Below are positions 608 to 16,282 of a DNA stretch of 50,419 nt, piece by piece. Position 1 is the stretch's first letter, and each line of letters begins with the position of its first letter. Origin of the DNA: Candidatus Accumulibacter contiguus (GTDB lineage: Bacteria > Pseudomonadota > Gammaproteobacteria > Burkholderiales > Rhodocyclaceae); assembly GCF_012940005.1 (NCBI RefSeq), contig NZ_SPMX01000050.1, forward strand, positions 1 to 50,419, written 5' to 3'. The position numbers were made by a program, and so were the translations under genes. The notes under the pieces are model-generated. The model saw only the letters and a list, made by a program, of their open reading frames with translations, was not told the DNA's origin and made no database searches.

Positions 608-2305
608 TTACATCTGCGCGTTCAACAGCGAACCGATCTTGTAGCCGATGTCGCCCTCGCCGGCATTCAGATTGGCCGCCTCGACGAGACCCGACAGGCG
701 TGCCAGTTCCTTGATGTCAGCCTCGTAGCCCACGGCATAGATCGGAATATTCAGTCCTTTGATGATCATTCGCATGTCGTCGAAACTCATGCCCTGGTTG
801 GTTTCGCCGTCGGTGAGCACGAACAGCATGGGCTGCACGTCCGGGTGTGTGGCCTTCTCCTTGACGAGCAGCGACAGGGCTACCGCGATGCCGTCGTACA
901 TCGCGGTGCCACCGGCGGCATCGATCTGTGCGATCGCCGTGCGCAGCGTGGCTTTCTGGCGTAGATCGAAAGGCTTGATCGGCACCACCTCGGTCACCTT
1001 GTCGTTGAACAGCACCATGCCTATCGAATTGCTCGCGGCAATCAGGTCGGAGCCCTGCAGCAGGGCCTGTTTGACGTTGCGCAGCCGGCTGCCCTGCATG
1101 GAACCGCTGATGTCACACAAGAATACCGCTGCGACCGGCCGGCTCTGGTTCTTGGCCTTTTTCCAGAGTTTTTGTACCTGCGCGATCATCTCTCCGGGCG
1201 GCGCTGCAAAGGGGGTTTTATGGTCCATGGGCGAATTAAAGCCATACTTGGCTGCGTTCGCCTGATATTTCTGCTGTGTCGCGAACGCCGCGAAGCGCTT
1301 CAGTACTTCGACGCGCTCGGCGGGAATCTTGCCCAGCGCGTAGAGTGGGTTGTCGTGGCGTTCGCCGAACGGCACGAATTCGTAGCCGCTGCTCAATTCC
1401 GGCATGTTTGCGAAGGTCTGGCGCTCCATCACGAAGGCGTCGAGCGAGCCGCCACTCTGTACCGAATCGCGCATTTGCAGGGTGGTGATGGCGACGAAGG
1501 GCACCTTGCTTTGAAAGCCCTCGAACGCGCTTTCCACGTCCGGCGCCAGCATGCGCGCGGTTTCGCCGCCGGCGAAGGTCTGCAGCACCGTGAGGAGGAA
1601 ATTCAGGCCGGTCGTGCTCGCATAGGGATCGGTGTAGCCCATCACGATGCGCTCCTGTACGGTCGCGTCGATGAGCATTTTGACGTCCAGTTGGCCGCCC
1701 GCGGTGCGTAGCTTGTCGGCTTTATCCTTTTTCAGCACGACGCCCGCAAGATTGCCGGCCAGACGCTCACTGATCGGCGTGACCGCCATGCCGCTCGCGG
1801 CCGTCATGCGTATCCACAGATGCGAGGATGGGGTATAGGCGTCGGGAACATATTTGCGCGAGGCGATGAACTGGTAGGCGGTGCCGGAGGCGATGTTGCG
1901 CACGCGGACCTGAGCACGCCGGCCGTCGGCAAGCTTCTCGTTCGCGGCATTGAAATCGCGCGCAACCTCGGTCAGCCAGCCATCGCTGCCATTGCCGGAT
2001 TTTTCGATCGAACTGAATATTTCGGCCACCACGTCACCGGCGCCAGCGGCCGGCTCCACGACGACCGGGAATTTTGCGATGTCGGGTAGTGTATCGGCCA
2101 GCGTGGCCGGCGCGCCGACAGGCAGATTGACCTGCGCACGCACCGGACGGGTGTCATAGGCCACGCGCTGCACGTGCTTTGCGAGTTCGGCGTGGGCCTG
2201 CTCGCTGGTCAATGGCTGGGAACGATCCGGCCCGCAAGCCGACAGCAGCAAGGTCAGGAGTGCGCCAAGAAGGATGCCGAACGCGCCTGGAGAGGAATTG
2301 TTCAT
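608..2305 (-). CDS. VWA-domain lipoprotein with solute-binding-like N-terminal half
   Basis: A 565-residue protein with a signal peptide and a lipobox (LLSAC, Cys24), so it is probably a lipid-anchored envelope protein. Residues of about 60-390 look like a periplasmic binding-protein fold (segments such as GYTDPYASTTGLNFLL are typical of extracellular solute-binding proteins). A C-terminal von Willebrand A domain follows, with an intact MIDAS: DISGS at 398-402, GGTAMYDG near 467, and TDGETN near 497. Such proteins bind a metal-dependent partner through the VWA face. The gene sits between a small TM protein and a VWA-like companion and downstream of a TelA homologue, a grouping related to 'toxic anion resistance' loci. 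The ligand is unknown. Confidence 0.85.
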   Translation of the reverse strand: MNNSSPGAFGILLGALLTLLLSACGPDRSQPLTSEQAHAELAKHVQRVAYDTRPVRAQVNLPVGAPATLADTLPDIAKFPVVVEPAAGAGDVVAEIFSSIEKSGNGSDGWLTEVARDFNAANEKLADGRRAQVRVRNIASGTAYQFIASRKYVPDAYTPSSHLWIRMTAASGMAVTPISERLAGNLAGVVLKKDKADKLRTAGGQLDVKMLIDATVQERIVMGYTDPYASTTGLNFLLTVLQTFAGGETARMLAPDVESAFEGFQSKVPFVAITTLQMRDSVQSGGSLDAFVMERQTFANMPELSSGYEFVPFGERHDNPLYALGKIPAERVEVLKRFAAFATQQKYQANAAKYGFNSPMDHKTPFAAPPGEMIAQVQKLWKKAKNQSRPVAAVFLCDISGSMQGSRLRNVKQALLQGSDLIAASNSIGMVLFNDKVTEVVPIKPFDLRQKATLRTAIAQIDAAGGTAMYDGIAVALSLLVKEKATHPDVQPMLFVLTDGETNQGMSFDDMRMIIKGLNIPIYAVGYEADIKELARLSGLVEAANLNAGEGDIGYKIGSLLNAQM

Positions 2306-2369
2306 GATCTACCTTTCGGTGAGTGGCCTGTGCCGAGCCAGTCGGCCCGCTTGAGCAGCGGCGAGCCGT

Positions 2370-3149
2370 TCATCTCTTGCCCGGCGGCCGTGCGCCGTCC
2401 GCCGCATAGCGGCCGGTCTGGCTTGCCAGTCGTTCGAGTTCCGCGATGGCCGTGCGGGTGTCGAGTTCGCTGCGATCCTTGCCGGTATGCGTATTGGCGA
2501 ATGCTGTCGCCACCCTGGTCAGCGCGGTAATCGCGGCTTCGTTCTGGGCCAGCAGGTCGGCCGCTTTCTCGAATTGGCCGGCGTGCAAGCGCTTGCGTTC
2601 GTGCCATGCACCGGCGCTGTCCGGGTGTGTGCCGGCAGCGTGCATTTCGCGCAGGCGCTGGTCGAGATAGTCGGCATCCCTGCTGCTTACGCTGCGCAAA
2701 CCCAAAGCCAGTTCGTGCAGGTTATCCAGCGCCGCGAGATAGACCTTGTCGGCCGTTGCGAGATAGCGGTCGAAGGTGAGTTCGCCGGCGTCCAGCCGCC
2801 GGCCCAGCACGATGGCCAGGGTACGGCGCTGGTCGCACAGGATGCTCAATTGTTCGACGCCGCGGCGGGCATCCGCGTGGCGCGCGCCAAGTTCGCGCAA
2901 TTCGGCCGCCAGCGGAGCAATGTCATCGGCGGGGGCGGTGCGCGCATTTTCCTGGGCAGCGCGTGCAGCCAGGACCGGCCAAAGCACCAGCAGTCCGGCG
3001 CCCAGCGCCAGCGCGACGATGTGGATCGCGGCGGACGGCGCGAACCACGCGGCAAACGCCCATTCCAGAAAGCCCGTCACGGCCAGCACGAACCCACTGC
3101 GCGGATCGCGCAGCAAGCTCCGGAGAGCACGCGGCGCCAGTGGATTCAT
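2370..3149 (-). CDS. Two-TM membrane protein of the TelA/VWA operon
   Basis: A 259-residue protein with two hydrophobic segments (about 18-36 and 41-62), then a long, charged, mainly helical cytoplasmic region rich in Ala, Leu, Arg and Glu. No enzyme motif is visible and no family name is claimed. Its ATG overlaps the TGA of the upstream TelA-like gene by 4 bp (ATGA), which implies translational coupling. The VWA lipoprotein gene follows after 64 bp. The arrangement suggests a membrane component joining a cytoplasmic TelA-like protein to an envelope VWA lipoprotein. That assembly is inference. Confidence 0.75.
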   Translation of the reverse strand: MNPLAPRALRSLLRDPRSGFVLAVTGFLEWAFAAWFAPSAAIHIVALALGAGLLVLWPVLAARAAQENARTAPADDIAPLAAELRELGARHADARRGVEQLSILCDQRRTLAIVLGRRLDAGELTFDRYLATADKVYLAALDNLHELALGLRSVSSRDADYLDQRLREMHAAGTHPDSAGAWHERKRLHAGQFEKAADLLAQNEAAITALTRVATAFANTHTGKDRSELDTRTAIAELERLASQTGRYAADGARPPGKR

Positions 3150-4599: not shown

Positions 4600-7344
<2,745 letters not shown>

Positions 7345-7354
7345 TTGCTGCAGA

Positions 7355-8114
7355 ATGGCTATGTTGAAATCTCATATAATTGCGCGCTATCCAACCCCTG
7401 CACACCTGCCTCCTTTGACCAGACAAGCGGACATATTCAGCTCTTCCATCGTCGCGGTAGGTGCCTTCAATCCGGCCATTTTCACGCCGGACTGGCTAGA
7501 GCGAAACAATCTGATCGGAACAGACGACCTGGACGGTGCGCGGAACGACGCGTCTTTGATAGTTTCGCACCAGGTTTGTGCGTTCGAAACCGACTGGTTT
7601 GCGCTTCAGGTGTTCGAAGAGCAGTTTTCGCTGACCAGCAAGGGACCTTTGACCCCGGCGTTTGCGGACTTGGCAATCGGGATCCTGTCCTTGGTGCCGC
7701 ACACACCAATCACTGCTGTCGGGCTAAATTTCCTCGGACATTACCGGCTAGCCAGCAAGGATGAGTACCACCGAGTCGGCGACGTATTGGCACCAAAAAC
7801 CATTTGGAACGGTCTTTACCCCGAAAAGCACGCTACCACCGGCCTGGTCGATCTGACAATGCTCATCCAGCGCACCGACAAGAGCCGGAACCCCGTATCC
7901 GGTGATGAGAAGCGGATTTCCGTCCAGCCTTCTACCAAGGTTCGTTGCGGGGTTTTTTTTCGCCTACAACGATCACCATGTCGTTGCCTCCAGCAATGAC
8001 GCCGTAACTGCCGCCGAGGTTGCATCCGATACCATCGCTTTGAACTGGGAGACATCTTGGCAAGACGCCGTTCGGGTATTTGATGGTATTCTTTCGCAGG
8101 CTCTGGCTGGATAA
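7355..8114 (+). CDS. Unknown protein 1 of MBL cassette, interrupted by a T8 frameshift
   Basis: The first frame runs from 7355 and gives a normal-looking protein ([14 protein letters not shown]..., [27 protein letters not shown]) until a run of eight T at 7953-7960. After it the first frame turns into low-quality sequence and stops at 7999. Removing one T joins it to the other frame, which reads [19 protein letters not shown] and ends at 8114. The intact product would be about 252 residues. The shift is either a sequencing or assembly error, a true mutation, or slippage at the T tract. The start is uncertain: ATG 7355 or 7361 lies upstream of a perfect TATAAT at 7375-7380, and an in-frame TTG at 7415 is another candidate. 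I do not recognise a named family. Gene 2 follows 9 bp downstream. Confidence 0.7.
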
Positions 8115-8123
8115 CCACCAAAC

Positions 8124-8687
8124 ATGCTAGTCCAGACCACTAGTCCAGCGCGCAGGGGCCGTAGCTCCCGCATCGCCGACCCGTTCGACTTCCAGAGCGA
8201 GCCTGTAGCTCCGAAACCCGTTGAAGTCGTGCGAAGTTCCACCGTGTTCTACGATCGGACGGACTTGGCGAGCAGTGTCTCGCAGCGCGCCGAAAAGGCG
8301 TTCTTGGCGCCATTGCCTGTCAAGTCGGTCGGAACCCAGGTTGACACTGATGCCTCAGTGATCCAGATCTGGGAAGGCCGCGTACTGAGCGTGGACTTGC
8401 AGAGTGAGGTGATGAGCGTCCTCTTGTCTGCAAGAATTGGGCAGGTTGCTGACCATACCGCTGAAATCGACCTGCAATGGGTGGCCGACCAAGACCGTGA
8501 TCTGGTCCAGCCCGGTGCCGTGTTTTACCTGACTCTCTTCAAACGACTGCGCCGGGGCAGCGTAGAGAACGCGCAGGAACTGCGGTTTCGGCGGCGGCCG
8601 GCCTGGTCCAGGCAGCAGATCCAGCGTATCCAGGCAGACGCGGCAATGATACGTTCGAAGATGAAGGCTCGGCCAATCGCTGAATGA
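8124..8687 (+). CDS. Unknown protein 2 of MBL cassette
   Basis: A 187-residue soluble protein of no recognised family. The first 60 residues are polar and Pro/Ser-rich and probably flexible. A beta-rich middle follows (VIQIWEGRVLSVDLQSEVMSVLLSA, then AEIDLQWVADQDRDLVQPGAVFYLTLF), like a small beta-barrel, and the end is a basic helix (RRRPAWSRQQIQRIQADAAMIRSKMKAR). It begins 9 bp after the first cassette gene, and its TGA overlaps the ATG of the MBL gene (ATGA), so the three genes are translated as a unit. Codon use and base composition look less GC-rich than acnA next door, consistent with transfer. Function is unknown; a nucleic-acid or partner-binding role is only a guess. Confidence 0.75.
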   Translation: MLVQTTSPARRGRSSRIADPFDFQSEPVAPKPVEVVRSSTVFYDRTDLASSVSQRAEKAFLAPLPVKSVGTQVDTDASVIQIWEGRVLSVDLQSEVMSVLLSARIGQVADHTAEIDLQWVADQDRDLVQPGAVFYLTLFKRLRRGSVENAQELRFRRRPAWSRQQIQRIQADAAMIRSKMKARPIAE

Positions 8688-9742
8688 GTGATTACGGCAG
8701 CGGTCCTGCTCACGACGAGCTGGAAATCACGCTCTTCGGGCCTGGCTTCGGTGAAGCGATCGCGGTCCATCTCGGCGAAAACAACTGGCTGCTGGTCGAT
8801 TCCTGCATCGATCCCGCAACCAAAGGCCCGGCAACCCACGCATACCTCCAGGCCATCGGTGTTCAGCCCAAGCATGTCAAGACTATCGTAGCATCGCACT
8901 GGCATGACGATCACGTGCGAGGCATGTCCCGGCTGGCTGCGCACTACCCGGATGCCGAGTTTATGTTGTCCGCTGTGTTCAACAGCGACGAGGCTTCTGC
9001 TTTCCTCGCAGCCTATGGGGGATCAGCGGCCCCCGGCTTGGCACGTGGCGCAAAGGAACTGTTTTCTGTGGTCGCCCAGCGAGCAGAGGTCAGTTTTCTA
9101 CAGCAACGCTTCTCTGTACTGGAGTTGTCCGCAAATGGTCGGAACGTTCGAGTATCGGCACTCTCGCCAGTCCCAGCTGCTTTCGCCCAATCCCTGGCCC
9201 ATTTCGCCCAGTATCTACCGCGAAATGTAGCGCAAATCAACCACGCACCGGACCTGCGCCCCAACCACGAAGCGGTGGTGCTACACATTGACTTTGACGG
9301 GGATGCGGCGTTGTTAGGCTCTGACTTGGAAAGCCATCCTACCTGCGGTTGGGGCGCGGTGGTGTCCAACGCCTGGTGCGCCGCTCGGCCTACGGGTTCA
9401 GCTTACAAAGTGGCGCACCATGGCTCCTATTCTGGTGACCACCCGAACATTTGGGCCACGCTGCTCGGGGAAAATCCGACCGCTTGCCTGACCCCGTTTA
9501 ACCGAGGTCATAGGTTACCGTCTGATGAAGACAAGGCCCGCATCAAAGCCAATACGGCAATTGCTTATTTGAGTTCCGGAGCAACGCGCCGGCCGGAAAT
9601 GGACGCGGCGGTGTTGAAGCGGCTGGAAGACATCTGCAAGAAGGTTTCACGGGTTAATTCAGGCTTTGGCGCGATCCGGCTGCGAAAGTTGCCAGCAGCG
9701 AACTGGGCCGTGGAACTCTTCGGGGCGGCCTGCGCTTTGTAG
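8684..9742 (+). CDS. Metallo-beta-lactamase-fold hydrolase of the cassette
   Basis: A 352-residue MBL-fold protein. The metal motif is intact: HWHDDH at 72-77 (His72, His74, Asp76, His77), a bridging Asp at about 214 in LLGSDLE, and a late His pair at 245-246 in VAHHGSYSG. The ordering and the AHHGS motif resemble the ComEC/Rec2 C-terminal MBL domain and related stand-alone hydrolases that act on nucleic acids or nucleotides; the substrate here is unknown. There is no signal peptide or membrane segment, so it is cytoplasmic. It overlaps unknown gene 2 by ATGA. It is probably the enzymatic effector of a three-gene system, which is inference from operon structure. Confidence 0.85.
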   Translation: MSDYGSGPAHDELEITLFGPGFGEAIAVHLGENNWLLVDSCIDPATKGPATHAYLQAIGVQPKHVKTIVASHWHDDHVRGMSRLAAHYPDAEFMLSAVFNSDEASAFLAAYGGSAAPGLARGAKELFSVVAQRAEVSFLQQRFSVLELSANGRNVRVSALSPVPAAFAQSLAHFAQYLPRNVAQINHAPDLRPNHEAVVLHIDFDGDAALLGSDLESHPTCGWGAVVSNAWCAARPTGSAYKVAHHGSYSGDHPNIWATLLGENPTACLTPFNRGHRLPSDEDKARIKANTAIAYLSSGATRRPEMDAAVLKRLEDICKKVSRVNSGFGAIRLRKLPAANWAVELFGAACAL

Positions 9743-9856
9743 GGCAGCAGAAAAAACTGTGCTGGAAGGCGTAAGAGTCTGCTTTGGAGGGCTATCTCCA
9801 CTGTTCTATAGTCGCAATGCGCCATCTGCACCCTTCACCAACCAGAAATTTCGCGT

Positions 9857-10040
9857 AAGGCCTGCGCGTGCAGCCGCACATCAAGACCTCGCTGGCTCCC
9901 GGCTCGCGGATGGTCACCGATTATCTGGAAAAGGCCGGCCTCCTGGAGCCGCTCGCCGAACTCGGCTTCGCGCTCGCCGGTTACGGCTGCACGACCTGTA
10001 TCGGCAATGCCGGCGACTTCGACCCGGCGTTCAACCAGGC
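9857..10040 (+). pseudogene. Internal fragment of acnA (184-bp duplication)
   Basis: The 184 bp match acnA positions 6008-6191 without gaps and with only four substitutions that I can count by eye (about 98% identity). It encodes the part of aconitase that carries the [12 protein letters not shown] cysteine motif. It begins and ends abruptly inside the coding sequence, so it cannot make a protein. Its high identity suggests a recent duplication. It lies 114 bp after the MBL cassette. Confidence 0.95.
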
Positions 10041-10304
10041 TCCTACCTGGCCGCGCCGCGAAACGCCAACAGCCTATACCCGGCGATGCCCGCCGCCGTG
10101 GCCGATCTGCTGGGCCGATGCCTGCAAGTCGACGTCGCCGCGCTCGAACGGCCCCATGCCCGCCCCTTCAGGCCGTGGCCGCGCTCGATGCCGACGGGCT
10201 CAACAACCTGGCGCTCTCGTTCCGCGATCTGGGCCGTGACGAACCAAAACCCATGCCGCCATGGCCGACATCCAGGGACGGCGCGGCAGCAATGCCCAAG
10301 CCCT

Positions 10305-10400
10305 GACTTCCCTGACACGGCGGTGCTGGATCTTTCCGCCGGCGACCGGCTGCTGTTATGCACCGACGGCCTGACCAACATGCTCGGCGACTGCGAAATT
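10305..10400 (+). pseudogene. PP2C-type protein phosphatase fragment
   Basis: One frame reads TAVLDLSAGDRLLLCTDGL followed by TNMLGD and EI. This is the GDxLLLCTDGLTxxL motif of PPM/PP2C serine/threonine phosphatases, containing a metal-binding Asp. The rest of the domain is absent on both sides. The fragment is embedded in non-coding scraps between the acnA fragment and the PEP-CTERM gene. The stretch 10041-10304 before it has several short open frames, none of which I can assign. Confidence 0.65.
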
Positions 10401-10401
10401 C

Positions 10402-10480
10402 GTCGGCACCGGCACCGACGATGCCGGCGACGCCCTCGACCGTCGCGTCGAATTCCGGGTGTCGACTGCTGAGGCCCCCC
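10402..10480 (+). pseudogene. Possible OmpA-like C-terminal remnant
   Basis: A frame directly after the PP2C fragment reads DDAGDALDRRVEFRV, which resembles the end of OmpA-family peptidoglycan-binding domains (N-x-L-x-RRVEF-x-V). Only about 25 residues are left. The assignment rests on a single short motif and is tentative. Confidence 0.35.
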
Positions 10481-10509
10481 GGCTGCGGCGCCCGACCGGC
10501 GCCGCAGCC
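10481..10509 (-). terminator. Strong hairpin after the PEP-CTERM gene
   Basis: A perfect 12-bp GC-rich stem (ggctgcggcgcc / ggcgccgcagcc) with a 5-nt loop lies 12 bp beyond the stop of the minus-strand CHRD/PEP-CTERM gene. No T-run follows on the minus strand, so it may be a processing or RNA-stabilising hairpin rather than a classic intrinsic terminator. Confidence 0.55.
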
Positions 10510-10521
10510 AAAGCCGTGCTC

Positions 10522-11112
10522 TCAGAGGCGTCGCCGTCCGCGCCGGGTCAGCACCAGCGCTCCGATGCCCATGGCGCCGAGGAGCAGCGAAGCGGGCTCG
10601 GGAACGCGCTCGGGGAAAGCGCGGATCTCGCCACCGGGGAACTTGCTGGTATGGATGTTGAAGTACGCCGTGCCGGCATCGAGGCCGGCAAACAGCGCAG
10701 TGCGCGCGCCGGCAACGGTCGCGCCACCGAAGTTGTTGATGAACGCGCTGGTGAAGCTGCTGGCCAGGTCGAGGTCGATGAGCGCCGAGTAGGAGCCCGC
10801 CGATACGCCCACAGGAAAGCCGGGCAGCGTGCCCGGGGTCACTGCCACGCCGATCGTTCCGGTACCGGCGGTTGCCGTACAACAGTGGATGTGCGCAATC
10901 GTCGTCGTTCCGGACAGGCCGGTGAAATCGGCGTGGATCGACAGATCGTTGGTCGCATCATCGAACTTGAGCTTGACGATACCGGACCCGGTGGCGCCCA
11001 GGGCTTCGGGGCCAAGATCAGCGGCGTAGGTGTAGACGGTGGCCGAGGCCAGGCTGGAAGTCAGGCTCAGGGTTGCCGCCAGAAAACAGGATTGCCATGA
11101 ACGTGTACGCAT
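10522..11112 (-). CDS. CHRD-domain exported protein with PEP-CTERM sorting signal
   Basis: A 196-residue secreted protein. The start at 11112 is chosen because AAAGGAG stands just upstream and the signal peptide (MRTRSWQSCFLAATLSL...SLASA) follows at once; the longer open frame upstream is not protein-like. The central part is a CHRD domain (IAHIHCCTATAGTGTIG, FINNFGG, GTAYFNIHTSKFPGGEIRAF). The C-terminus has the tripartite PEP-CTERM signal: VPEPASLLL, a hydrophobic helix, then RRGRRR. Such proteins are processed by exosortase in EPS/biofilm-forming Gram-negative bacteria. No exosortase gene is in this window. Sigma-54-type promoter elements lie upstream (11248-11264). Confidence 0.92.
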   Translation of the reverse strand: MRTRSWQSCFLAATLSLTSSLASATVYTYAADLGPEALGATGSGIVKLKFDDATNDLSIHADFTGLSGTTTIAHIHCCTATAGTGTIGVAVTPGTLPGFPVGVSAGSYSALIDLDLASSFTSAFINNFGGATVAGARTALFAGLDAGTAYFNIHTSKFPGGEIRAFPERVPEPASLLLGAMGIGALVLTRRGRRRL

Positions 11113-11247
11113 CGGGTAGTCTCCTTTGTCAGGCTGGTTGTCCGCATGGCGAGCCTCACGGCCGCCGCGTGCGGGGGTCGAGCGGACGCGCGATCGACCA
11201 ACCGGCACCTTCGCGCGATTCGGGCAGCCCGCCCCCGTGCAGACTGA

Positions 11248-11264
11248 AGCAAGATCCGCACCAT
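11248..11264 (-). promoter_or_regulatory. Sigma-54 (-24/-12) promoter
   Basis: On the minus strand the sequence TGGtgcggatctTGC has GG and GC separated by exactly 10 nt, matching the sigma-54 consensus TGGCACN5TTGC. It lies about 135 bp upstream of the ATG of the PEP-CTERM gene. Sigma-54 with the PrsK/PrsR two-component system is known to drive many PEP-CTERM genes. Confidence 0.6.
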
Positions 11265-11316
11265 TGTTGCAAGGCATTGTTTGCATGAGCTTCCAGCCTG
11301 CGGGCACGGCGCGACT

Positions 11317-11334
11317 GTAAAAAAAATCCGACAA
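11317..11334 (-). promoter_or_regulatory. Candidate enhancer (PrsR-type) site
   Basis: The minus strand reads TGTCGGATTTTTTTTACA, an imperfect TGTcg...tTTACA dyad, about 55 bp upstream of the putative -24 element. This is where a sigma-54 activator would bind. Assignment to PrsR is inference from the PEP-CTERM context. Confidence 0.45.
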
Positions 11335-11409
11335 AATCACTCGGAAAATATTCGCTACAGCCCGACGGGAGCGGTCGGCTGCCCGAGAGCGGTGGCGGGG
11401 TGCCGTCGC

Positions 11410-13605
11410 TCATGGCTGGTTGTTGAGCCACCGCCCGAGCATCTGCCGCAGCGCCGCCGCCTCGAACGGCTTCACCAGGTAGTCGTCCATTCCCGCCTGC
11501 AGGCACTCGTCACGGTAGCCTGCCATGGCGTGCGCCGTCAGCGCAACCACCGGCGTCCGCTGCGTACCGCGCAGCTTCTCCACCTCGCGAATCCGGCGTG
11601 TCGCCTCGAAGCCGTCCATTCGCGGCATCTGGCAGTCCATCAGCACCAGGTCGAAGGGTTGGCGCGCCTGCTCGGTCACAGCCTGCTCACCGTCGGGCAC
11701 CAGCACGACGTCGATTCCGTAGTGCAGCAGCGTTGCCCGCGTCACCTCGGCGTTGACCGGGTCATCCTCGGCGACCAGAACACGGCGACCGGCGAAAGAC
11801 CCGGCGACGGCACGGCGCCCCGCCGCCGCCGGCGCCGTTGCCTCGGGGAGGCGGACTCGAAACCAGAAGCATGAACCCTCGCCCGGTGAACTCTGCACCC
11901 CGATCTCGCCACTCATCAGGCGTACCAGTTCACGCGCGATCGACAGCCCGAGCCCGGTACCACCGAAGCGCCTGGTCGTCCCCTGCTCGGCCTGCGCGAA
12001 CGCTTCGAAGATCTGCGCCTGCTTGTCCGCCGCGATGCCGATGCCGGTGTCGTGGACGGCGAAACGCAGAGCGCCATCAGCCTCACGACAGGCGTCGACG
12101 TCGATCGTCCCGTGTGTCGTGAACTTCACCGCGTTCGACACCAGATTCAACAGCACCTGGCGCAGCCGGACGACGTCGCCTGTCACCCAACGCGGTAGAT
12201 CCGCCGCCGCCGTCACCCGCAGGGTCACGTTCTTGAGCCGCGCGGTCTCGCCGAAGAGATCCTGCAGCTCGCGCAGCATCGCCGGCAGATCGAAGCACGC
12301 TGATTCCAGATCCAGCCTCCCCGCCTCGATCTTCGAGAGGTCGAGAACATCGTCCAGCACGCCGAGCAGCGCCCGCCCCGAGCGCTGGATGGTCCGTGCG
12401 TAGTGCCGCGCCCGCTCCGCCAGGGGCTCATGCAGCAGCAGGTCGGCCATGCCGATGACGCCGTTCATAGGCGTCCGGATCTCGTGGCTCATGTTGGCCA
12501 GGAAAGCCGACTTGGCCCGGCTTGCCGACTCGGCAGCCTCTTTGGCGGCGATGAGTTGCTGCTCGATCCGCTTGCGCTCGCTATCGTCGATGGCGAAGAT
12601 GTAGGCACCCTGTACCGAGCCATCCTCTGCCCGGTCGGGCAACAGGTACGTGCGGTCATAGCGGGTGCTTCCGTCGGACATCGGCAGAGCCATGTCGTAT
12701 TCGGCTGCCTCTCCCCGCCGTACCTGCTGCAGATGGGGCTCGATCTGGCAATAGGCCTCGTCGCCAAGCAGCTCCGGCACGCCCATGCCGCCGACGGCCT
12801 CGGCCGTGCGCCCGAAGCACTCCGCGTAGCGCCGGTTCACGAAGGAATAGCGCGGCATACTCTCGGTGTAATCGGCGTGGGCAATCGCCGCCGGCATGCC
12901 ATTGACGATGCGCTGCAGGCGCTGCTCACCACGCCGTATGCTGGTGCTGTCGGCCGCCCGCGCACGCAGGACGATCCGCGCTGCCATGGCGACGACGACC
13001 AGCGACGAGAGCTGGCCGATGAACGCAAGCAGGGCGGCTTCCTCGGCGGGGACCAGGTTCGGCGGCAGCAGCCCGCACACCGTCGCCCAGTACAGCGCGA
13101 AGAGCAGCAGGATGTCGATGGCGAAGGCAGCCAGCAGCACGCGCGCGCGGCCGAAGGTGCCCAGCGTAGCCAGCAGCGCGATCAGCCAGGGCGCCGCCGC
13201 CGACAGAACGCCGCCGGTGGCAAAGGCCCAGACGACGACATACACGCTGCCGAGCAGGTTGGTGAGCAGGAGGACTTCGGTCGGCCGCGACACGAAGCGG
13301 ATGGCGGCCGCAGCGCCGACCGGCGTCAAGATCGCGACCGCAAAGAGCGTCAGTTCGAGCGTGCTCGGCCGGCTGCGCACGACGATGAAGGCGACGAGCA
13401 GCAGCGACACCACGGCTGAGATGGTCAACAGCGAGCGGGCGACAATCCGCGCCCGTGCCGCGACGCGGGCGTCGGCACGCGGCGGCACGAACCAGTCGAT
13501 GAAGCGCCGGCTGCTCACGCCGCGGCCACCACCAGCCGCTGGCCCTGCCGCCGTTGCGGGGCGACGAGCGGAGCGCCAGGAGGGTGCAGGGGGAGTGGCA
13601 TGCAA
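11410..13605 (-). CDS. Hybrid sensor histidine kinase with receiver domain
   Basis: A 731-residue membrane histidine kinase. The N-terminal 200 residues hold about six hydrophobic segments, forming an integral membrane sensor. A PAS domain follows (about 225-340, [16 protein letters not shown]...). The HisKA dimerisation domain has the phospho-acceptor His374 in [13 protein letters not shown]. The HATPase domain carries the G boxes ([18 protein letters not shown]). A C-terminal receiver domain (about 605-725) has the phospho-acceptor Asp657 in [11 protein letters not shown]. No DNA-binding output is present, so it must signal through another regulator. The first 30 residues are low-complexity, and a GTG at residue 30 is an alternative start. 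No cognate regulator gene is adjacent. Confidence 0.93.
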
Positions 13606-13921: not shown

Positions 13922-14527
13922 ATGGCGCGTACAGAAGATCTCAAGTGTCTGTTGTGCGGGGCATTTTTTGTGGCGGATGCGCGAAACACGCGGCACCAGA
14001 AATACTGTTCCGCGCCGGCTTGCCGCAAGGAGAGCAAGGCCGCCAGTCATCGCGCCTGGCTGGCCAAGAGCGACAACCAGAACTACTTTCGCGGTGCCGA
14101 GAATGTCGCGCGGGTGAAGTCATGGCGCGAGGCCCACCCGGGGTATTGGCGACGACCGAAAGGCCAGAGAGGAGAAGCGACGACAGGGCCGGCAGAGCCA
14201 GTTGCGTTACAAGATGTCTGCCCCACGCAACCCATTGAAATCACTACCGAGCCTCAAGACATCTTGCAACCTGCGTTACAAGATGTCTGGCTTGGCCAAC
14301 CCGCTGTTGTGATTGGTTTTATCGCTCATTTCATGGGCAGTACGTTACAAGATGACATCGCCAGGAGCACCCGGCTGCTAGTACAACTGGGGACTGACAT
14401 CATGGCGGGAAGAATTAAAAATGACGATCAAACGCGTTCTTTGTCCAGAGCGAGTCCGGCAGATCCCGATTCAATTCAGTTGGCTCGACCACCGCCTGGT
14501 GCGGGAACGGTACATCGAGCGCTGTGA
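13922..14527 (+). CDS. IS21 accessory protein with zinc-finger motif
   Basis: A 201-residue protein with an N-terminal zinc-ribbon-like motif (CLLC near residues 9-12, then HQKYCSAPACRK near 35-46) followed by a basic region. The middle carries repeated LQDV/LQDD units (ALQDVCPTQP, ALQDVWLGQP, TLQDDIARS), encoded by imperfect DNA repeats of gcgttacaagatgtctg. Its end overlaps the next gene by about 107 bp. I believe similar proteins accompany transposase genes in other bacteria, but I cannot name a family. Lying inside the IS ends and co-oriented with istA, it is probably a DNA-binding accessory or regulator of the element, which is inference. Confidence 0.7.
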   Translation: MARTEDLKCLLCGAFFVADARNTRHQKYCSAPACRKESKAASHRAWLAKSDNQNYFRGAENVARVKSWREAHPGYWRRPKGQRGEATTGPAEPVALQDVCPTQPIEITTEPQDILQPALQDVWLGQPAVVIGFIAHFMGSTLQDDIARSTRLLVQLGTDIMAGRIKNDDQTRSLSRASPADPDSIQLARPPPGAGTVHRAL

Positions 14528-14813
14528 TCCGCCGGCAGCGGCGCTGTACCTGTTTCTGGTGACGGTTGCCGATGTCCAGGGGTTGAGCTACTACTCGGAT
14601 GCTGCGCTCGGTCGCTGCCTGTCGCTGACGCCTGCGCGTCTGAGTCAGGCGCGCAGCGATCTGATACGCATCGGCCTCATTGCCTATCAACACCCGCTCT
14701 ACCAGGTCTTGTCCCTCGATTCTCCGCCCTGCAGCGAAGGGGGCGAACTCGGAGCTGACGAGATCAGTGTCCGGATCGGCCAGTTGCGCGCCGTCTTGGG
14801 ATGGACCTCATGA
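14421..14813 (+). CDS. IS21 accessory protein, HTH-like
   Basis: A 130-residue basic protein. Residues of about 25-90 look like a winged-helix or replication-initiator-type HTH (AAALYLFLVTVADVQGLSYY, then SLTPARLSQARSDLIRIGLI). It starts inside the 3' end of the zinc-finger gene, and its TGA overlaps the ATG of istA (ATGA at 14810-14813), so istA is translationally coupled to it. This arrangement suggests it regulates or assists transposition. No named family is claimed. Confidence 0.7.
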   Translation: MTIKRVLCPERVRQIPIQFSWLDHRLVRERYIERCDPPAAALYLFLVTVADVQGLSYYSDAALGRCLSLTPARLSQARSDLIRIGLIAYQHPLYQVLSLDSPPCSEGGELGADEISVRIGQLRAVLGWTS

Positions 14814-16282
14814 TCAAATACGAGCTGTACTGCAAGATCAAGGACTGCCATGAGCGGCAGGGACTGACCGTCGCGCAGACCGCGCGTGCCCTTGGCCTGC
14901 ATGAGCAAACGGTGGTGAAATGGTTGGCCTGCGAGCAGTTCCACCCCCGGCAATCGGCACCGCGAAGCAGTCAGCTCGATCCGTTCAAGGACCAAGTCAT
15001 TCGTCTGCTCGAAACGCACCCGTACAGCGCGCAGCAAATCTACCAGCGCCTGCGCGAGGGCGGTTTCGAGGGCGGCTTCACGATCGTCAAGGACTATGTG
15101 CGTCGGGTCCGTCCGGTGCGTCGAGAAGCTTTCCTCAAGCTCTCGTTTGCTCCGGGTGAAGCTGCCCAGGTGGACTGGGGCGAGTACGGTTCGATTGGCG
15201 TGGGCTCGACTCGCCGGCGGCTCTCGTTCTTCGTCAGGGTGCTGTGCTATAGCCGTCTGATGTACGTCGAATTCACCGTCGCGCAAACCATGGAGCACTT
15301 TCTCGCGGCTCACGAGCACGCCTTCGCGGCCTTTGGCGGTTGTCCGGGCCGCCTGATGATCGACAATTTGAAGTCGGCAGTGCTTCGCCGCGTGGTCGGC
15401 GAAGCGCCGGTCTTCAATCCGCGCTATCTTGATTTCGCCCGTCATTGGGGGTTTGACATCTCGCCCTGCAATGTCGCGAAAGGCAATGAGAAAGGGAGGG
15501 TCGAAAGCGGGGTGGGTTATGTCAAAAAGAACCTGCTCAACGGCGCTGACTTCCTCGACTTCAGTGCAGTGAACCCGGCCGCCGAGGTGTGGCTGGCGAG
15601 CATCGCCAATGTCCGTCTCCATGGTGAAACACACCAGCGACCCGTGGATCGGTTCAAGGACGAACAGGCGCTACTGCAGCCACTCAACCCGATGCCCTAC
15701 GACATCGGTCGCATCCAGAGTCAGCGCGCCTCGAAGCAGTTCCGGGTCGCGCTCGACACCAATCACTATTCGGTGCCGGCCGAGTTTGCCAGTCAACGCG
15801 TGACGCTCAAGGCTTACCCGGATCGGGTATGCATTTACCACCAGGACAAACTCATCGCGCGTCACCTGCGCAGCTATGACCGGCATCAGGATATCGAGGA
15901 CCCCGATCATCCGAAGGCGCTGCTCGCCCAGCGGCGCAACGCGCGCGAGCAGCGCTTGCTGGTGCAGTTCCTGAGCCTGTCCAGACACGCCCAGGTCTAT
16001 CTCGAAGGCATCGAACAACGTCGCGTTAACCCGCGTCATCACCTGCGCAAGATCGTCGCCTTGAGCGAAATCTACGGCATCGACGCGGTCGATCGGGCGA
16101 TCCAGGACGGCATTGCCTTTGCTGCCTATAGTTGCGAGTACATCGCCAACATCCTGGAAATGCGGGCTCGTGAAACCCCCGAGCCGGGGGCGCTGCATCT
16201 CACCCGCCGCCAGGATCTCCTGGACCTCGAGATCGCCGCACCCGATCTCTCTCCCTACGAAAGGCATAGCGATGGGCACTGA
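14810..16282 (+). CDS. istA: IS21-family transposase IstA
   Basis: A 490-residue transposase. The N-terminus has an HTH (LTVAQTARALGLHEQTVVKWL). The DDE catalytic residues are visible: Asp122 in QVDWGEYG, Asp185 in RLMIDNLKS and Glu232 in NEKGRVESG. The C-terminal region has the Mu-transposase beta-barrel-like stretch (FRVALDTNHYSVPAEFASQRVTLKAY). The start at 14810 is preferred because it overlaps the upstream TGA as ATGA; an ATG at 14801 is also in frame. The istB gene overlaps its end by 11 bp. All catalytic residues are intact, so the element may be active. Confidence 0.95.
   Translation: MIKYELYCKIKDCHERQGLTVAQTARALGLHEQTVVKWLACEQFHPRQSAPRSSQLDPFKDQVIRLLETHPYSAQQIYQRLREGGFEGGFTIVKDYVRRVRPVRREAFLKLSFAPGEAAQVDWGEYGSIGVGSTRRRLSFFVRVLCYSRLMYVEFTVAQTMEHFLAAHEHAFAAFGGCPGRLMIDNLKSAVLRRVVGEAPVFNPRYLDFARHWGFDISPCNVAKGNEKGRVESGVGYVKKNLLNGADFLDFSAVNPAAEVWLASIANVRLHGETHQRPVDRFKDEQALLQPLNPMPYDIGRIQSQRASKQFRVALDTNHYSVPAEFASQRVTLKAYPDRVCIYHQDKLIARHLRSYDRHQDIEDPDHPKALLAQRRNAREQRLLVQFLSLSRHAQVYLEGIEQRRVNPRHHLRKIVALSEIYGIDAVDRAIQDGIAFAAYSCEYIANILEMRARETPEPGALHLTRRQDLLDLEIAAPDLSPYERHSDGH

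Follow-up and report, generated by a model that had tools for sequence, protein, structure and literature searches.

A three-gene operon lying directly behind the aconitase gene acnA in Candidatus Accumulibacter contiguus represents a conserved, tightly coupled and co-diverging unit, in which two proteins, g1 and g2, are followed by a metallo-beta-lactamase (MBL)-fold hydrolase that retains its metal-site motifs. A role in defence is likely for this trio, and the reading we favour, with reasonable confidence, is that of a mobile anti-phage operon in which the MBL would be a DNase effector and g1 and g2 its sensor and gate.

Architecture and recurrence of the operon

The operon was analysed within a 50,419-nucleotide stretch of contig NZ_SPMX01000050.1 (hereafter the window), part of a 5.0 Mb draft genome in 167 contigs. 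The preliminary description of this DNA had placed the trio directly behind acnA with an ATGA overlap between the last two genes, and both points hold, with g1 starting 10 bp after the acnA stop (Table 1). The operon has a G+C content of 57.9%, compared with 66.0% for acnA and 67.4% for positions 9743-13600. No sigma-70-like promoter was found in 7200-9950, and an Rfam search of 7200-10400 returned little or nothing.

Table 1. Features of the three-gene locus and its immediate surroundings in the window.
Feature	Position	Strand	Basis
acnA (aconitate hydratase, 914 aa), left neighbour, outside the system	4600..7344	+	ORF list
Opening frame of gene 1 (g1), 214 aa, with homology ending near the T run	7355..7999	+	g1 profile 5.9e-72, profile positions 3-178
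Run of eight T at which the g1 reading changes frame	7953..7960	+	sequence
g1 C-terminal part, second frame	7902..8114	+	g1 profile 9.1e-09, profile positions 171-223
Gene 2 (g2), 187 aa, predicted disordered N-terminal tail and OB-like beta barrel	8124..8687	+	g2 profile and model (barrel, residues 77-157)
Gene 3, MBL-fold hydrolase of ComEC-like type, 352 aa, overlapping g2 by ATGA	8684..9742	+	profile and motif comparison
96% copy of internal acnA segment 6008-6198, boundary scar, outside the system	9857..10047	+	self-comparison

Gene 1 had been taken for one intact open reading frame, but its opening frame stops before the homologous C-terminal part is complete, the remainder lying in a second frame. 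The break coincides with a run of eight T, and the two parts match the g1 profile separately. The 9-bp gap originally given between g1 and g2 (8115-8123) is correct when measured from the end of the second frame and not from the opening frame. No further break was seen in the window g1 beyond the T run, internal stops occur in none of 22 g1 relatives (alignment A4), and among 113 loci the 16-base string around the run was present only in the four taken from the source genome. The break may be genuine, an assembly error or bypassed by slippage; because g1 is frameshifted, the window copy may be non-functional.

To establish how widely the arrangement recurs, profiles of g1, g2 and the MBL were run on all collected loci, with a strong MBL match defined as one below 1e-30. 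Searches with the MBL recovered two GTDB species contigs, two plasmids and viral contigs. Besides the window, 33 contigs carried an MBL below this threshold, two of which (L053, L054) are cut at the MBL; in all 31 with upstream room, g1 and g2 lie directly upstream in the same order and on the same strand. These 31 contigs, in which re-fetched copies are uncounted, reduce to 28 once near-identical pairs are removed. Loci L034-L049, L051 and L052 stood outside the building of the g1 and g2 profiles, with the weakest g2 matches there near 1e-8. Neither g1 nor g2 accompanied any of 19 weaker MBL matches (L010-L024, L055-L058), L010-L024 extending only ~1.5 kb past the match. A reverse search by g1 identified four other genomes among 398 of the phylum and two others among 101 of the family, and all six, one of which (G107) was also recovered via the MBL, carry g2 and the MBL behind it. 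The check proposed in the preliminary description, co-occurrence of the three genes in other genomes, is thus answered positively from both directions, and chance falls far short of explaining so constant an order. Among the 26 operons for which gaps are listed, neighbouring genes either overlap or are separated by no more than 38 bp (starts chosen by us). When each protein is compared pairwise over 29 operons, the divergences of the three correlate (r of 0.70, 0.75 and 0.75, reached in 0 of 2000 permutations), a pattern also expected from plain linkage.

The acnA setting is a local matter. The trio is followed by a copy of an internal acnA segment, as previously described, although the copy measures 191 nt rather than 184 bp, and the flank beyond the operon is rearranged, with this partial copy and fragmentary ORFs. 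Aconitase matches were found in all 21 genomes searched, the source included, and full-length acnA with 84-96% identity in ten genomes of the same genus. One of the genus (G756, acnA 96% identical) has a different acnA segment copied ~2 kb behind acnA (contig C1 2285495-2285899, L100), such that partial copies of different segments are present behind acnA in two genomes; no g1 was matched in G756 in the search of family genomes. The distance from acnA to the next shared stretch (window ~18111) is 10.7 kb in the window versus 5.5 kb in G756. The site is prone to rearrangement, and we regard the acnA copy as a scar and not as a component of the system. The idea that everything between 7355 and the acnA copy moves as a single unit was rejected, given that the trio occurs without acnA at other loci and that G756, with its own partial acnA copy, gave no g1 match; likewise, what is transferred is not the acnA-bounded island of the preliminary description, since the trio is found at different sites elsewhere. 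Within the variable stretch behind acnA there is also a 493-aa ORF (14801-16279) that by eye resembles, in translation, an IS21-type IstA transposase. In addition, a 31-nt unit is present three times at 14203-14371, inside ORF 13922-14527, with 69 bp spacing and copies 100, 81 and 68% alike.

Two unplaced, mostly acidic proteins and a ComEC-like MBL

The intact HxHxDH site reported for the window MBL is present as SHWHDDH, and across the family (L002 numbering) DSC, H72, D76, H77, D216 and both histidines of HHGS are found in 29 of 29 members, with H74 kept in 28. Both ComEC blocks are conserved, one reading N..[S/A]V..G.DLE and the other K[VI].HHGS. The protein has the aspartate and the HxHxDH-type, N..(S/A)V..G.DLE and HHGS blocks of a ComEC-like MBL nuclease domain; the HxHxDH-type block reads HPDADH in ComEC itself. 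The closest solved sequences are likewise ComEC nuclease domains. The stretch between the two ComEC-like blocks spans ~99 profile positions in the MBL as opposed to ~55 residues in ComEC, and the additional length may therefore accommodate extra gating segments. The MBL is neutral to basic, with a pI above 7 in 17 of 29 members. In PADLOC, the models closest to the protein represent MBLs from defence systems, namely RTasMBL (1e-12) and LmuA (9.6e-9) for the L059 MBL, with LmuA (4.8e-6) also nearest to the window protein. Ranked by E-value, a lactonase model comes first among the NCBIfam matches of the window MBL, at 24.8 bits against a cut-off of 360.

The possibility that the MBL is a known housekeeping enzyme, which would have spoken against the original proposal, is contradicted by scores far below the NCBIfam cut-offs. 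For the window protein these were 21 bits for GloB (cut-off 200.8), 18 bits for RNase Z (292.95) and 23.9 bits for B3 beta-lactamase (240). A ComEC/Rec2 transporter was rejected for a stand-alone protein of 352 aa lacking a channel, which scored 12.5 and 17 bits against cut-offs of 190.05 and 969; two E. coli MBLs reached 22.7-29.9 bits against the same equivalogs. The 6A-MBL anti-phage system (NCBIfam NF058524) also includes an MBL-fold protein, but the two E. coli MBLs scored only 28.3 and 31.8 bits against its cut-off of 220, and 6A-MBL is absent among 25 of the 27 NCBIfam families matched by the window MBL. Similarly, AVAST type 1 (Avs1a, cut-off 420) was rejected at 15.5 and 20.7 bits for the E. 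coli proteins and 13.1 for that of the window.

The two partners were described at the outset as unplaceable, and this stands for all g1 and g2 members tested, with no convincing match in Pfam, NCBIfam or PADLOC. No model in these three libraries was matched by the window g1 pieces at E-values up to 1, and the same searches with the window g2 gave little or nothing. Searched against Pfam at 0.1, 22 g1 relatives matched four families and 23 g2 relatives nine, each with a single member (best 0.01 and 0.0013, respectively) and judged to be chance; PADLOC at 0.01 gave none for the 22 g1 relatives, and NCBIfam and PADLOC none for either partner in two E. coli copies. By sequence, g1 had no match in the PDB and g2 one, at 0.3; searching plasmids with g2 yielded little or nothing.

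The predicted model of g1, as we read it, consists of two beta-alpha-beta3-alpha repeats, and the protein is acidic throughout the family, with a pI of 4.7-6.0, below 7 in 29 of 29. The fold may be TBP-like or AdoMetDC-like, the match to the TBP type being weak, and in a viral structure library the best match was an unnamed 202-residue protein (E 9.2e-10, TM 0.56 and 0.63), the remaining matches being mostly unnamed or uncharacterised proteins. A TBP-like DNA binder was set aside on the basis of the weak fold match and the acidic pI. We also rejected a caspase-like protease for g1, as it lacks a conserved His or Cys: neither residue occurs among the g1 or g2 columns conserved in 90% of 29. For g2, a disordered N-terminal tail precedes a barrel that appears OB-like in the predicted structure; this protein is mostly acidic (pI below 7 in 25 of 29).

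Mobile settings and patchy distribution

The trio is rare and patchy. With the source genome included, it is present in 5 of 369 genomes of the class, as judged by strong MBL matches in four others (14 more gave weak matches only), 5 of 398 of the phylum by g1, 3 of 101 of the family and 2 of 300 of the order, where up to six candidates were scored per genome. Named hosts are Pseudomonadota together with one Bacteroidota plasmid, and viral contigs are also represented. Sequence divergence is considerable, with 29.7% identity between the window MBL and the member on a Pantoea plasmid, which in turn shares 44% identity with the L040/L059 type. At the DNA level, the trio was detected in 17 of 5426 E. 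coli genomes, two at 100%, 14 with a second match pattern and one with a third. Little or nothing was returned when two enterobacterial MBLs and one g1 were compared with INPHARED phages, or when the L043 operon was searched against E. coli by megablast.

In E. coli the trio is prophage cargo. In all eight regions viewed of the 17, which represent three variants of the trio, it sits between the Q antiterminator and the holin or lysis genes and runs in the opposite direction to the late genes, and this interval is a typical slot for prophage cargo. Other copies occupy different settings: between integrases on the Pantoea plasmid, on a Sulfuritalea contig that also has an integrase and genes for type I restriction, on one viral contig near an Abi_2 gene and type I restriction genes, and, in G675, following a gene for a Zot domain (L079 6891-8114), a domain of filamentous-phage assembly. 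On the Adhaeribacter plasmid NZ_CP055155.1, a helicase gene adjoins the MBL and is followed, across the record start, by a TerB-domain gene (928-3051, 114204-116309). PADLOC, applied to 106 neighbours, tallied one SngC (5.6e-211) and one SngB (9.3e-104) without member names; because only this locus fits those tallies, we read the two genes as a Shango system.

Known defence systems were recognised at 3 of 13 neighbourhoods, type I restriction twice and Shango once, and none could be named at the other ten, the scan covering 117 of 139 ORFs at the 13 loci. The type I restriction families had two members each (among 25 of 140 families), and with L003 and L029 left aside, the neighbours matched 30 families by single members only (among 25 of the 30). 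Apart from Sng, single-member PADLOC models comprised Brx, Dpd, Dru, Cas3, Ham, mad and PsyrT, most of helicase type and read as cross-matches. The trio is better described as mobile cargo than as a gene set confined to defence islands. Some chromosomal copies, a counterpoint to the defence reading, adjoin housekeeping genes as judged from translations by eye, with priA and alr beside one (L077) and rlmD-like and dapA-like genes around another (L112). Two neighbouring features are recorded separately. Directly behind one trio lies a gene for a 483-aa protein (L076 7928-9376, minus strand) with DSDH and PHHGA, MBL-like by eye and without a Pfam match at 1e-4. Genes for a HipA-family kinase and DUF3037 (L063 18964-20537), domains named as defence domains in the DefensePredictor paper, are found in the same E. 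coli prophage as a trio.

Proposed function, related systems and alternatives

In the model we propose, gene 3 would encode a cytosolic ComEC-type MBL DNase acting as effector, while the acidic g1 and mostly acidic g2 would form a sensor and gate that keep the nuclease inactive or aim it. A phage-derived signal would release the nuclease, DNA would be degraded and infection would stop. The production of two acidic partners ahead of the nuclease suits a gate or sensor, and we infer the DNase activity, the gating by g1 and g2, the trigger and an outcome that may be either clearance of DNA or death of the cell. The defence or conflict system originally suggested is supported by the prophage cargo position, the mobile contexts, the defence genes at three loci, the class of the MBL and a RefSeq label discussed below; the frameshifted g1 of the window speaks against it.

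Nucleases of the ComEC-type MBL class appear repeatedly as effectors of defence systems. PMC12799240 establishes MBL pro-nucleases as effectors in Hachiman and Canu, and those it works out are activated by partner proteases. As presented there, Canu (CanABC, Klebsiella aerogenes) resembles the trio as a three-gene locus with an MBL-type nuclease downstream of its partners, lies near transposases and in defence islands, and has CanA and CanB acting on the nuclease. In contrast to Canu, with its caspase-like CanA bearing catalytic residues, neither g1 nor g2 shows a signature of caspases or other peptidases, a column of conserved Cys or His, or a match to a peptidase family; as a point against the model, no MBL-activating protease was recognisable in the trio in Pfam, NCBIfam and PADLOC searches. 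The HamM and trypsin-MBL modules of Hachiman, AVAST, Lamassu and DRT, again as described in PMC12799240, share with the trio a ComEC-like MBL of similar size, and in the HamM-type modules, insertions block the nuclease active site. The trio differs in that its MBL is encoded last rather than upstream, and its conserved unit lacks a trypsin fusion, helicase, NTPase or reverse transcriptase.

The trio is not wholly new to databases. PHROGs 36401, 29493 and 28593 are matched by g1, g2 and MBL of E. coli ECOR29 at 3.8e-145, 9.1e-134 and 1.8e-260, respectively, and are separate families of unknown function with no mutual link listed. The E. coli prophage locus with g1 WP_000143147.1 has the same three genes in the same order as the window, but differs in its remote sequence, prophage setting and intact g1. 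RefSeq names WP_000143147.1 an 'anti-phage protein' in two records and a 'hypothetical protein' in two others, and on account of this label the E. coli version has probably already been tested against phage. Its discovery has possibly been made already, and the preliminary description's term 'undescribed' is doubtful in light of the same label. A possible source of the label, by our guess, is the study of defence in E. coli prophages by Brenes and Laub 2025 (Cell Host Microbe). No description of the trio was found in titles and abstract beginnings among the literature matches listed, and the word 'lactamase' is absent from the main text of PMC13092281.

Other functions must be weighed against the gated DNase. 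The Q-holin position does not require its cargo to be a nuclease, and MBL-fold enzymes have many substrates, which with the lactonase model as best NCBIfam match leaves room for superinfection exclusion or another benefit to the lysogen without DNA cleavage. The MBL, with g1 and g2 as partners, would then act on RNA or a small molecule, for instance by hydrolysing a nucleotide or a signal. Conservation of both ComEC blocks and the ComEC domains as best solved relatives argue against this alternative, which we regard as unlikely. An addiction module, with the MBL nuclease as toxin, g1 and/or g2 as acidic antitoxin and phage defence as a secondary effect, would account for the tight coupling with partners first, the opposing pI values of partners and MBL, the mobile contexts and the insertions beside housekeeping genes. 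It appears improbable for three large proteins (~230, 190 and 355 aa) with an 'anti-phage' RefSeq label; to our knowledge, proteins of this size and two retained partners are unusual for toxin-antitoxin modules.

A different question concerns the window copy itself, which could be a degenerate remnant of an earlier transfer, now decaying beside acnA and without function in the source genome, a state compatible with defence elsewhere. The g1 frameshift at the T run and the rearranged flank with its partial acnA copy and fragmentary ORFs point in this direction, but both g2 and the MBL remain uninterrupted and keep their motifs, g1 shows no second break and a homopolymer assembly error is possible. 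We regard decay as possible but somewhat less likely than not.

Returning to the gated DNase, we tentatively suggest a form of protease-free immunity, in which the double-repeat g1 and the tailed, OB-like g2 might sense phage DNA processing and free the ComEC-type nuclease through a change of conformation, the nuclease itself staying uncut. Such a system would have been carried over at least two phyla by temperate phages, by plasmids and through insertion into chromosomes. With no convincing Pfam, NCBIfam or PADLOC model for the members tested, g1 and g2 are candidate markers for defence-finding tools, and the E. coli prophage versions make the trio testable in K-12. The trio thereby asks how a ComEC-type nuclease is held safe and released without a partner protease.
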